Part shown: in pieces, positions 3,205 through 15,466 of the stretch | How positions within the stretch are numbered: position 1 is the stretch's first letter | How the letters are laid out: each line of letters begins with the position of its first letter | Source: an uncultured Pelagibacteraceae bacterium | GTDB taxonomy: Bacteria; Pseudomonadota; Alphaproteobacteria; Pelagibacterales; AG-422-B15 | Length of the DNA stretch: 59,320 nucleotides | Reading direction: 5' to 3' | NCBI GenBank assembly: GCA_902510025.1 | Contig: CABWZX010000004.1 | Location: 1-59,320 of the forward strand | Notes under the pieces: generated by a model | Told to the model about the DNA's origin: nothing | Seen by the model: the letters and a program-made list of their open reading frames with translations, nothing else | The model's database searches: none | Program-made: the position numbers and the translations under genes

Positions 3205-3210
3205 TAGTTT

Positions 3211-3290
3211 GCTACAGGGGAGCTTGAGCTGAGAGGTTTCTTAAAGAAACGACCCTTAACCTGATCTAGATAATGCTAGCGGAGGAAGTT
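3211..3290 (+). promoter_or_regulatory. TPP riboswitch (THI element)
   Basis: AGGGGAGC...GCTGAGA-GGTTTCTTAAAGAAAC-GACCCTTAACCTGATCTAGATAATGCTAGCGGAGGAAG; canonical CUGAGA, GACCCUU, ACCUGAUCU..UAAUGC.AGCG blocks; directly upstream of thiB. Confidence 0.95.
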
Positions 3291-3291
3291 T

Positions 3292-4182
3292 ATGATCAAA
3301 AAATACTTAATTATTTTTTTTCTACTATTAATCTCAACAAATTTATTTGCTAAAGAAACAATTATTGTTGGTACCTATGACTCGTTTGCTGCTGAATGGG
3401 GTCCAGGACCAGAGATAGAAAGATTGTTTGAAGAAATCTGTGATTGTGATCTTAAATATATAACAACATCTCAGGCTGGAACTTTACTTGGTAATATTTT
3501 CTTAAAAAATAAAGATATTATCTTAGGAGCAACATATGATGCCGAAAAATTCAATAGTTTTTACAAATTTCAAGCTTATGACTACGGATATTATGCTTTT
3601 ATATATAATGAAAATTTGCTTACAAATCCTCCACAAACTTTTGATGAATTAATTAATAGAGATGATCTAAAGATTGTCGTTCAAGATCCAAGAACAAGTC
3701 CAGTTGGAATGGGATTATTAAAATGGATGAGTGCAGTATTTGATCAACATAAGATGGAAGCGATAAGCAAGCTCGATAAACAAATAATAACATATACACC
3801 AGGATGGAGCGAAGCCTATGGTATGTTTCTTGAAGAAAAAGCTGATTTAGTTTTAAGTTATAGCACTTCTCCTTTTTATCATCAGGAATATGAAAACATT
3901 TATCATTATAAAGCTTTAATTTTTCATGAAGGTCACATTAAAGAAAATGAATATGTAATAATTCCAAAAGATTCTAAACAAAAAGTAACTGGGGAAAAAT
4001 TCTTATCTTTCCTTAATACTGAAGAAATACAAAAAATCATTGCAAAAAATAATATTATGTACCCTATCTTAGATTCTGCAATTCCTTCTAAAATGAAAGA
4101 TCTTCAAAAGCCAAAAGCAGTAATGAACATGTCAACTAATGAAGAGCTTATCTCATTGTGGTTAAATGCGGCTATTCAATAA
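3292..4182 (+). CDS. thiB: thiamine ABC transporter substrate-binding protein
   Basis: Signal peptide; TYDSFAAEWGPGPEIERLFEE, ThiB/TbpA-like; TPP riboswitch upstream. Confidence 0.92.
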   Translation: MIKKYLIIFFLLLISTNLFAKETIIVGTYDSFAAEWGPGPEIERLFEEICDCDLKYITTSQAGTLLGNIFLKNKDIILGATYDAEKFNSFYKFQAYDYGYYAFIYNENLLTNPPQTFDELINRDDLKIVVQDPRTSPVGMGLLKWMSAVFDQHKMEAISKLDKQIITYTPGWSEAYGMFLEEKADLVLSYSTSPFYHQEYENIYHYKALIFHEGHIKENEYVIIPKDSKQKVTGEKFLSFLNTEEIQKIIAKNNIMYPILDSAIPSKMKDLQKPKAVMNMSTNEELISLWLNAAIQ

Positions 4183-5689
4183 TTTAAAACACAGACTTTA
4201 TTGGATAAGTCCTTTTATTATCTTTCTTGCTATCTCGATTCCTTTGATAAGTGCTTTTTATCTTTATGATTTCAATAAAGGTTTTGAATATTCAGACTAT
4301 ATATCTTCAATTACTTTCTTTAGTTTATATCAATCTTTATTATCTGCATTATTATCAATAATAATCGGAACTGTGTTCGCCTATCTATTAATTAAACATA
4401 GTTATATTTTTGGAATTAAGTACATAATAAATTCATTATCGATTTTGTTTGTACTTCCAACAATTATAACAATTTTTGGCATTCTATCAATTTATGGAAA
4501 TTTTTTTCAAGTCTATGGCTTTTTTGGAATCTTATTGGGCCATGTGATATTAAATGTACCTTTAGTTACAAGAGTTATCTTTCAAACTCTAAAAGATATA
4601 AGTCCAAATGAGAGAATGTTAGCTGATCAAATGAATTTAAATTTCTGGGGAACATTTCTAGCAGTTGAATGGCCGGTAATAAAAAAAAATATTCCAAGTC
4701 TTTTTGTTTTAATTTCATTTATCTGCTTCGTTAGCTTTACACCTATTCTGATCTTAGGAGGTAGTCCAAAATATTCAACTCTTGAAGTAGCAATTTATCA
4801 TGCTGTGATGTTTGCAGACGAGTTTAATGTCGCCTTTAATCTTCTTATTCTTCAAATTCTAATATGTGGTTCAATATATTTTATATTTTTTAGAAATTTC
4901 AAAAGTAAAAATTTTATAATTGATGAACATAAAGAGTATAAGACTTTAACTGTTATTTCTTCTAAACATATTATTGAGTACTTAGTCTTAACTTTAATAT
5001 CAATATTAGTTTTCTCTCCTATTGTATTCATCTTTATTAAAGGAATAAATTTGACATTATTCGAAGTTCTGAATTCTTTTTATTTCTGGTCAGCTTTAGG
5101 AACAACTTTCTTAATTGGCTGTCTTTCAGGAGTTTTATCAATAATACTGACATATGGAAATTTAGTTTTTTTAGATAAAAACCAAAATTCATCTGAATTT
5201 TGGTTTTATATTTTGATAATTTTCTCGCCAGGAATTTTGGCAGTGGGCTATTACATTTTTTTTAATGAGATTATTGATTCTTCTATCTCAAATATAGTGA
5301 TAATTATTATCATTAATTCAATAATTACTCTGCCTTTCACTTATAATTATTTATCTCCTTCTTTCTTCAGAGTCTCAAAAGAGCATGAGGATATATCTAA
5401 AAGTATCAATATATATGGAACTAAAAGATTCTTTCTTGTTGATTGGCCACGCCTAAGAGAACCTTTAGTGACTGCATTCTGTGTTTCATCTATATTATCA
5501 GCTAGTGATTTAGTTATAATTTCTTTTTTTGGAACCAATGACTTGTCAACTCTCACCCAAACCATATATAGACTTATGGGAAACTATAGAATGGATGAAG
5601 CTTATGCAGTGTCGCTCTTACTGCTCATATATTGTTTCATATATTTTATGATTTCGTATAAATTGATCTTAAGAAAATGGAACACATAA
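4166..5689 (+). CDS. thiP: thiamine ABC transporter permease
   Basis: 507 aa, two tandem permease halves with many TM segments; overlaps thiB by 17 nt. Confidence 0.88.
   Translation: MRLFNNLKHRLYWISPFIIFLAISIPLISAFYLYDFNKGFEYSDYISSITFFSLYQSLLSALLSIIIGTVFAYLLIKHSYIFGIKYIINSLSILFVLPTIITIFGILSIYGNFFQVYGFFGILLGHVILNVPLVTRVIFQTLKDISPNERMLADQMNLNFWGTFLAVEWPVIKKNIPSLFVLISFICFVSFTPILILGGSPKYSTLEVAIYHAVMFADEFNVAFNLLILQILICGSIYFIFFRNFKSKNFIIDEHKEYKTLTVISSKHIIEYLVLTLISILVFSPIVFIFIKGINLTLFEVLNSFYFWSALGTTFLIGCLSGVLSIILTYGNLVFLDKNQNSSEFWFYILIIFSPGILAVGYYIFFNEIIDSSISNIVIIIIINSIITLPFTYNYLSPSFFRVSKEHEDISKSINIYGTKRFFLVDWPRLREPLVTAFCVSSILSASDLVIISFFGTNDLSTLTQTIYRLMGNYRMDEAYAVSLLLLIYCFIYFMISYKLILRKWNT
5178..5207. 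repeat. perfect 14-bp inverted repeat inside thiP
   Basis: AAAACCAAAATTCA-TC-TGAATTTTGGTTTT. Confidence 0.9.
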
Positions 5690-13414: not shown

Positions 13415-13879
13415 TTAAACCATTTCAATTATATTAAACTTTTTAAGGGCTTGTGAATCGTGCGGATGACTCTCACCGCAATAAACTTTCATATTAGATA
13501 TTTGCTGTCTACCTAATGGCCCTTTTGGAATCATTCTTTGAACTGCTAACCTAATTATTCTGTCGGGGTTCTTACCTTCAATTATTTTCTTTGCTGTAGT
13601 TTCCTTTATTCCTCCTGGATAACCTGTATGCCAATAATATTTTTTATCAGAAAGTTTGTTTCCAGTTAATTTTACTTTCTCAGCATTAATAATTATTACA
13701 TTGTCCCCACAATCAACATGAGGGGTAAAGTTAGCTTTATGCTTGCCTCTTAGTATCTTTGATACATTTGATGCAAGTCTACCTAGAACTACATTCTCAG
13801 CATCAATCAGAAGCCATTGTTTATCCACATCCTTAGGGTTTAACGACTTTGTTTGCTTAATTATTTTAGAATTTGTCAT
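13415..13879 (-). CDS. rplM: 50S ribosomal protein L13
   Basis: [51 protein letters not shown]. Confidence 0.96.
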
Positions 13880-14010
13880 CGTGTGGCTAATTAACTAAAT
13901 AACTCCAATATGTCAATTTAAATTTCTTTACTATATAAAATCAATTAGTTACTCAATGGTATTATAATACTAATAATTTAACTTTACTTATTTTTTTTAG
14001 TTTGCTTAAA

Positions 14011-14016
14011 TATATT
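14011..14016 (+). promoter_or_regulatory. possible -10 element (TATATT) of the metY leader
   Basis: TATATT about 7-12 nt before the aptamer; poor -35 (TTATTT 13988-13993). Confidence 0.3.
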
Positions 14017-14027
14017 TGTCGATTTTT

Positions 14028-14074
14028 TGCGGCTTGCGGACTTTAACAGCTAAGCCTAGAATGTAGCCGCACAT
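14028..14074 (+). promoter_or_regulatory. SAM-II/SAM-V-like pseudoknot riboswitch aptamer with alternative antiterminator
   Basis: P1 GGCT 14031-14034 : AGCC 14053-14056; P2 GCTA 14049-14052 : TAGC 14064-14067; loop GGACUUUAAC and AAUGUAGC resemble SAM-II core; precedes metY. Confidence 0.7.
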
Positions 14075-14098
14075 AATTGAAAATGTGCGGTTTTTTTT
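14067..14098 (+). terminator. intrinsic terminator in the metY leader (attenuator)
   Basis: CCGCACAT-AATTGAAA-ATGTGCGG-TTTTTTTT. Confidence 0.92.
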
Positions 14099-14149
14099 GA
14101 ACACAAATTCGGCGGTAAATTTGTTAATAACTAAATATAAGGAGAAATT

Positions 14150-15466
14150 ATGGCTAAAAATAAATTCGTTCCTAGTGATTCAGTAAATCCTGAAACTCTA
14201 GCTCTTCATGGAGGAGATTACAGGAGTGATCCTTCGACTACTGCTGTAGCTGTTCCAATCTATCAAACTACATCTTATCAATTTAATAGCACTGAACATG
14301 CTGCAAATCTATTTGGAGCAAAAGATTTTGGAAATATCTACACTAGAATTATGAACCCAACAGTAGATGTTCTAGAAAAAAGAGTTGCTGCTTTGGAAGG
14401 TGGAGTTGCTGCTCTTTGCGTCAGTTCAGGACAAGCCGCTTCAGCGCTTAGTATACAAAATCTGGCTAAAGCGGGAGATAATGTAGTTAGTTCTACTGAC
14501 CTCTATGGAGGAACTTGGAATCTTTTTGCAAATACACTTAAAGATTTAGGTATAGAAGTAAGATTTGCTGACCCTACTGATCCAGAAAGTTTCCGTAAGT
14601 TAACTGATGACAACACTCGTGCTTATTATGCTGAAACTTTACCAAACCCAAAATTAAAGGTTTTCCCCATTAGGGAAGTAGCTGATATCGGCGATGAATA
14701 CAATATACCGTTAATTGTAGACAATACTTCATCACCCGTAATTTGTAAACCAATTGAACATGGAGCAACAATTGTTGTTCACTCTTTAACAAAATTTATT
14801 GGTGGCCATGGAACGACAATTGGCGGAATCATTGTTGATAGTGGCAAGTTTAATTGGGCAAAAGATAAAGAAAGGCAGCCAATGATTAATGATCCTGATC
14901 CAAGTTACCACGGCATGATTTGGTCAGAGTTTGCTGAAGCAATAAATATGCCAATTGCATATATTGTTAGAGCAAGATTTGTGGGCTTAAGAGACTTGGG
15001 TCCTTGCTTGCCTCCTCAAAGTGCTTTTCAAATAATACAAGGCTTAGAGACGGTAACACTAAGAATGCAAAAGCATTGTGATAACGCTGCTAAAGTTGCT
15101 GAATTTCTATCTAAACATAACAAAGTAACTAAAGTTATATATGCAGGTTTAGATGAAGATGAGGCTGGTAAGAGAGCAAGTAAATACCTTAAAGGTGGAT
15201 TTGGAGCTCTTTGTGGATTTGAGCTTAAAGGTGGTAAACAAAGTGGTCAGAAGTTTATTGATAACCTAAATATGTTCTACCATGTAGCAAATATAGGTGA
15301 TGCAAGAAGCTTGGCAATCCATCCAGCTACTACAACTCACTCTCAATTATCAGATGAAGACATGCTTGCAACCGGAGTTAGTCCTAGTTACGTAAGACTC
15401 TCTATTGGAATTGAGCATATCGATGATATCATAAGCGATCTATCTAACGCTCTAGATAACGCTTAA
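14150..15466 (+). CDS. metY: O-acetylhomoserine sulfhydrylase (aminocarboxypropyltransferase)
   Basis: NPETLALHGGDYRSDPSTTAVAVPIYQTTSYQF, VVHSLTKFIGGHGTTIGGIIVD, NIGDARSLAIHPATTTHSQLS. Confidence 0.95.
   Translation: MAKNKFVPSDSVNPETLALHGGDYRSDPSTTAVAVPIYQTTSYQFNSTEHAANLFGAKDFGNIYTRIMNPTVDVLEKRVAALEGGVAALCVSSGQAASALSIQNLAKAGDNVVSSTDLYGGTWNLFANTLKDLGIEVRFADPTDPESFRKLTDDNTRAYYAETLPNPKLKVFPIREVADIGDEYNIPLIVDNTSSPVICKPIEHGATIVVHSLTKFIGGHGTTIGGIIVDSGKFNWAKDKERQPMINDPDPSYHGMIWSEFAEAINMPIAYIVRARFVGLRDLGPCLPPQSAFQIIQGLETVTLRMQKHCDNAAKVAEFLSKHNKVTKVIYAGLDEDEAGKRASKYLKGGFGALCGFELKGGKQSGQKFIDNLNMFYHVANIGDARSLAIHPATTTHSQLSDEDMLATGVSPSYVRLSIGIEHIDDIISDLSNALDNA

Follow-up and report, generated by a model that had tools for sequence, protein, structure and literature searches.

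A probable short SAM-II-type riboswitch variant in the metY leader of an uncultured Pelagibacteraceae bacterium

The leader of metY in the window (the whole analysed stretch of 59,320 nucleotides) very probably contains a small variant of the SAM-II-type riboswitch with a minimal P1 helix of 3 bp. By its letters the element appears to descend from SAM-II, and by its anatomy it would be a very small, 39-nt pseudoknot at positions 14018-14056, with SAM as its likeliest ligand. The aptamer core and the terminator that follows it are solid, while the exact antiterminator is not.

Anatomy and distribution of the metY leader element

The gene metY, whose divergent neighbour in the window is rplM, is preceded by a leader stretch that reads GUC-GAUUUUUUGC-GGCUUGC-G-GAC-UUUAACA-GCUAAGCC and lies 5' of an intrinsic terminator (Table 1). 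The order of P1, third strand, P2, P1', L3 and P2' typical of an H-type pseudoknot can be read from this stretch, with a predicted P1 of 3 bp. Pocket positions of SAM-II were mapped onto it from the published work (PMC3764141), and 12 of the 13 invariant bases were found in order (U10-12, U20, U21, G22, C23, G42, C43, U44, A45 and A46). The exception is A47, which contacts the amino and carboxylate groups of SAM and is replaced by G14054. The pattern of core plus 3-bp P1 occurs at a single place in the whole window and in none of 20,000 dinucleotide shuffles of 13880-14149. This pseudoknot, far above chance by the shuffles and by a reversed-pattern control, had not been drawn in the original prediction, all of whose quoted strings do occur at the coordinates given for them. 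What was drawn there as P1, GGCT(14031-34):AGCC(14053-56), is actually part of P2 of the SAM-II-type pseudoknot, and the proposed P2, GCTA(14049-52):TAGC(14064-67), breaks in genus g3, which mostly has CAGC, and in genus g2.

Table 1. Coordinates of metY and of observed and predicted features of its leader
Feature	Position	Strand	Basis
Predicted P1, 5' strand GUC	14018..14020	+	Pairs with 14039-14041; GTC..GAC in nearly all homologous metY leaders
L1 / predicted third strand; GAUUU at 14021-14025	14021..14030	+	Sequence comparison; SAM-II U10-U12 = 14023-14025 (PMC3764141)
Predicted P2, 5' strand GGCUUGC	14031..14037	+	SAM-II U20, U21, G22, C23 = 14034-14037
Predicted P1, 3' strand GAC	14039..14041	+	Invariant in 16 aligned f1 leaders
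L3 UUUAACA, 7 nt	14042..14048	+	Sequence comparison
Predicted P2, 3' strand GCUAAGCC	14049..14056	+	U44 = U14051, A45/A46 = 14052-14053, A47 position = G14054
Candidate antiterminator, aptamer-side strands UCGAUU 14019-14024 and UGCGGCU 14028-14034	14019..14034	+	Best fold before terminator 3' arm; window genus only
Candidate antiterminator, terminator-side strands AGCCGCA 14065-14071 and AAUUGA 14075-14080	14065..14080	+	Same best fold
Intrinsic terminator hairpin CCGCACAU-AAUUGAAA-AUGUGCGG	14067..14090	+	Sequence, terminator scan, alignment
Terminator U8 tract	14091..14098	+	Sequence
Shine-Dalgarno-like AAGGAG of metY	14139..14144	+	Sequence
metY, O-acetylhomoserine/O-acetylserine sulfhydrylase, 438 aa	14150..15466	+	TIGR01326 602 bits, cut-off 495

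The originally proposed terminator, CCGCACAT-AATTGAAA-ATGTGCGG-T8 at 14067-14098, has the GC-rich hairpin and U tract of an intrinsic-terminator attenuator. It is the sole terminator-like site within 13700-14300, where 0.3 are expected, and it is kept at the same place in three genera (g1, g2 and g3) of f1, the family to which the window belongs. With the full terminator the minimum free energy of the window RNA is -24.3 kcal/mol. The coupling to a terminator and the association with metY were borne out by the terminator scan and the TIGR01326 match. Leaders of metY orthologues were gathered by protein homology, and the GCUUGC of the P2 5' strand is invariant in 16/16 aligned f1 leaders. No pair of P2 or the terminator has changed on both sides in the f1 alignment (0/12 pairs covary), and compensatory changes are absent from P1. 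Since P2 never varies and could alternatively be drawn as a simple hairpin, covariation lends the pseudoknot no independent support.

Of the 397 Pelagibacterales genomes searched, 34, among them that of the cultured HIMB114, contain the pattern at a single place each; the reversed control matched in none. All 30 copies that were compared by coordinates lie directly 5' of metY. The same stretch is present in g1, g2 and most of g3 as well as in g5 and g8 of the sister family f2. Leaders of f2 (g5 and g8, including HIMB114 and L142) read GUC-GAUUUGAUACAG-CUUGCG-GAC..ACA-GCUAAAGCG, which are textbook SAM-II letters with A47 intact in most copies. A GTDB-wide search with the same pattern recovered copies before metK in Marinomonas and Spirochaetia, plus copies in Rhodospirillales. 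Further matches in Paenibacillus, Enteractinococcus, Verrucomicrobiales, Anaerolineae and a deltaproteobacterium are likely due to chance, about 17 chance matches being estimated. Separately, a SAM-II-like element was noticed on the minus strand of a SAR86 contig (L093, a gammaproteobacterium; ~2304-2339). It has a 5-bp P1, a 5-nt L3 and a 5-bp outer P2 (GGCAC:GUGCC), falls below the Rfam threshold and precedes a small uncharacterised ORF of 77 aa.

Assignment to SAM-II and comparison with SAM-V

Searches of the region with Rfam at gathering and permissive thresholds returned chance matches only (Phe_leader, trpB and a plastid intron), of which Phe_leader and trpB have E values above 2. The best RF00521 score among the metY elements is 13.1 bits, for a copy from the same genus, as against a gathering threshold of 36 bits. 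An empty covariance-model search had been named in the original prediction as an outcome against it, but the result is explained by the model itself. As its alignment shows, the only base pairs in RF00521 are those of a 6-bp P1, and the metY element is missed because this sole scored paired region has shrunk from 6 to 3 bp. P1 grows to 5-6 bp in relatives from Marinomonas, SAR86 and Rhodospirillales; the Marinomonas and Rhodospirillales copies, with the same core and the same GUC:GAC inside their long P1, pass the threshold at 36-46 bits.

The element shares with SAM-II (SAM_alpha, RF00521; long-loop form RF01726) the order P1-GAUUU-P2-P1'-L3-GCUAA, the 12 pocket bases, the control of metY and a downstream terminator. 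Members of the class lie 5' of methionine or SAM genes and mostly come with a terminator, as is the case here with metY and 14067-14098. It differs from SAM-II in its P1 (3 bp instead of about 6), its L3 (7 nt instead of the 11-12 nt of most long-P1 copies), the G in place of A47 and the lack of detection by Rfam. In Rhizobiales and Rhodobacterales, metY usually stands under SAM-II control (PMC4239095). SAM, perhaps bound with changed affinity, is favoured as the ligand because the downstream genes are SAM-feedback genes. A leader peptide, a protein-binding site or another attenuator that is not a riboswitch has very little probability: nothing specific speaks for it beyond the Phe_leader and trpB matches, which are due to chance, no Rfam leader was found, and the SAM-II pocket consensus is present in order.

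The original prediction had left the class between SAM-II and SAM-V, and only the former half of that label fits. From the locus one might expect SAM-V, since rplM-metY of 'Ca. Pelagibacter ubique' is under this riboswitch (PMC2704228, PMC5069961). In several g6 genomes, too, SAM-V directly precedes metY. The window element has further likenesses to this system in its triplex core logic (PMC6061858) and its short P1, which has 4 bp there, but the SAM-V of 'Ca. Pelagibacter ubique' is translational, sits at the ribosome-binding site and contains a P3, all of which are absent here. The window element ends at 14056, some 95 nt short of the start codon and clear of the Shine-Dalgarno sequence at 14139-14144, with the terminator in between. 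RF01826 did not match the metY leader, its sole match in the genome being a copy before bhmT with 76.9 bits. SAM-V identity is ruled out by this miss together with the position and the missing P3, and its probability is negligible. A further related system, of 'Ca. P. ubique' (PMC11508383), resembles the window element in UUGCG, GCUAA and a terminator with CCGC in its 5' arm, and differs in its 6-bp P1, its retained A47 and the SAM-V downstream.

Elsewhere in this genome a canonical SAM-II precedes metX (L032, 36.8 bits), and a bhmT-like gene (L001) is preceded by a SAM-II-like core, recognised by eye, with a terminator and then by SAM-V. Together these elements make the methionine genes look like a SAM-riboswitch regulon. 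SAR11 lineages may control metY by different SAM riboswitches: that of 'Ca. Pelagibacter ubique' by SAM-V, those described here by the short SAM-II. The standard model misses the short form, and annotations of SAR11-type bacteria therefore appear to understate how often SAM-II controls metY.

The A47-to-G change in the binding pocket

G47 is fixed in the intact f1 copies (g1, g2 and g3), in which core and terminator are kept, and was also found in two g8 genomes. A47 is retained together with a 3-bp P1 in g5 and in most g8 copies, and P1 shortening therefore probably preceded the A47 change. In an alphaproteobacterial class sample of 289 genomes, SAM-II core patterns with A47 matched 136 genomes and those with G47 matched 14. 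Seven G47 cases were convincing on inspection; six stand before metK in three families (L186-L191), and the seventh, from a fourth family, stands before metY (L180). The metY and one metK were identified by profile and the other metK genes by their shared N-terminal sequence. Like the window element, these copies have GCUAAG in place of GCUAAA and could form a C19-G47 pair. Unlike it, they have a P1 of normal length; their RF00521 scores lie above the threshold in L187 and L188 and at 25-37 bits in the others. No description of a G47 SAM-II or of the short-P1 form was found in the open-access literature that was searched.

In SAM-V, replacement of A50, the equivalent of A47, by inosine severely weakened binding (PMC6061858), which implies that G47 should matter; the rest of the pocket is nonetheless kept in three genera. 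It is conceivable, though unlikely, that the G47 form in the metY leaders of this lineage and in the rare metK and metY leaders constitutes a functional class of SAM-II variants whose ligand preference has changed and in which the methionine end of SAM is no longer read in the usual way. Such a re-tuned riboswitch would still terminate but would sense another adenosyl compound (S-adenosylhomocysteine, decarboxylated SAM or methylthioadenosine) or high SAM only. The fixation of G47 with an intact core and terminator and its recurrence in otherwise canonical SAM-II copies are consistent with this, and SAM-I variants that sense spermidine provide a precedent (PMC10853860). However, every associated gene found, metY or metK, is a classic SAM-feedback gene that points to SAM, and the groove donors and acceptors of a C-G pair might replace those of A47.

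Loss of A47 and a P1 of only 3 bp would also be expected if the pocket had become non-functional, leaving a constitutive or weak attenuator composed of a plain GGCUUGC/GCUAAGCC hairpin and the terminator. Part of g3 (L028-L031, L039-L043) has neither terminator nor core before metY and retains TTTGCAGACTTTTACAGCAATT-like remnants, which look like the same element in decay; metY leaders of g4 and some of g3 (L004, L005, L025, L027) have no element at all. Moreover, 14020-14105 folds well as plain hairpins (z = -3.0). Against such decay in the window stand the other 12 pocket bases and their spacing, kept in three genera, among them loop bases for which a plain hairpin would have no use (GA(G)UUU and the bulged U44), and a non-functional pocket is judged improbable. 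The preferred reading remains a SAM-II-type riboswitch, and the A-to-G change found in nature at the position reading the aminoacyl group of SAM, present in metK leaders too, provides a ready experiment on the SAM-II pocket.

Proposed switch and neighbouring elements

The switch is most likely an OFF switch. At high levels of the ligand, most likely SAM, the leader would adopt the H-type pseudoknot with P1 (14018-20:14039-41) and P2 (14031-37:14049-56), the U-rich third strand being placed in the groove of P2. The pseudoknot would sequester strands of the aptamer whose alternative partner is the 5' arm of the terminator, so that 14067-14098 could form and metY would remain untranscribed. When the ligand is scarce, the 5' aptamer strand would pair with 14065-14080 as an antiterminator and metY would be made.

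The best fold before the 3' arm of the terminator has -17.9 kcal/mol and joins 14028-34:14065-71 with 14019-24:14075-80. It uses the P1 5' strand, the third strand and the start of P2, and thus excludes both aptamer and terminator, which fits an OFF switch. The originally proposed antiterminator TGCGGCT(14028-34):AGCCGCA(14065-71) is part of this fold in the window's genus, and L003 has all 7 bp as well; the pairings in g2 and g3 differ, with TGCAGCT at this place in g2 and TACAGCT or TGCAGCT in g3. Shuffles of the upstream part paired with the terminator 5' arm at least as well as the real sequence in 6/100 cases for the window, 11/100 for L003, 1-32/100 for g3 and 31-45/100 for g2. The real pairing exceeds the shuffles by a small margin, and this exact antiterminator is no more than suggestive.

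In g3 (L006-L024), GCUGUGAAACUCGA between the terminator and the start codon complements the P1/L1 strand UCGAGUUU..ACAGC over about 14 bp. At most 10/300 shuffles were as good, and L011 carries a matched change from ACAGC:GCUGU to GCAGC:GCUGC; this helix may form upon read-through only. On inspection by eye, such a helix between L1 and the read-through sequence beyond the U tract had seemed to be widespread, but it was rejected as a general feature, RNAduplex with shuffles being significant in g3 only and not in the window's genus.

Two further observations concern other parts of the window. The rplM-metY intergenic region contains a palindrome, GGTATTATAATACT, at 13958-13971, and a GGTAYTATARTACC-like sequence is kept in the family's metY leaders, even in those that lack the riboswitch. 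Could this palindrome be an operator or part of a divergent rplM promoter? On the plus strand at 3206-3304, a TPP riboswitch (RF00059, 56.1 bits) ends right at the start codon of the gene at 3292-4182. This gene resembles a periplasmic binding protein and is followed by an ABC permease-like gene at 4166-5689 (both named by eye); the two probably encode a thiamine transporter under translational control by the TPP riboswitch.
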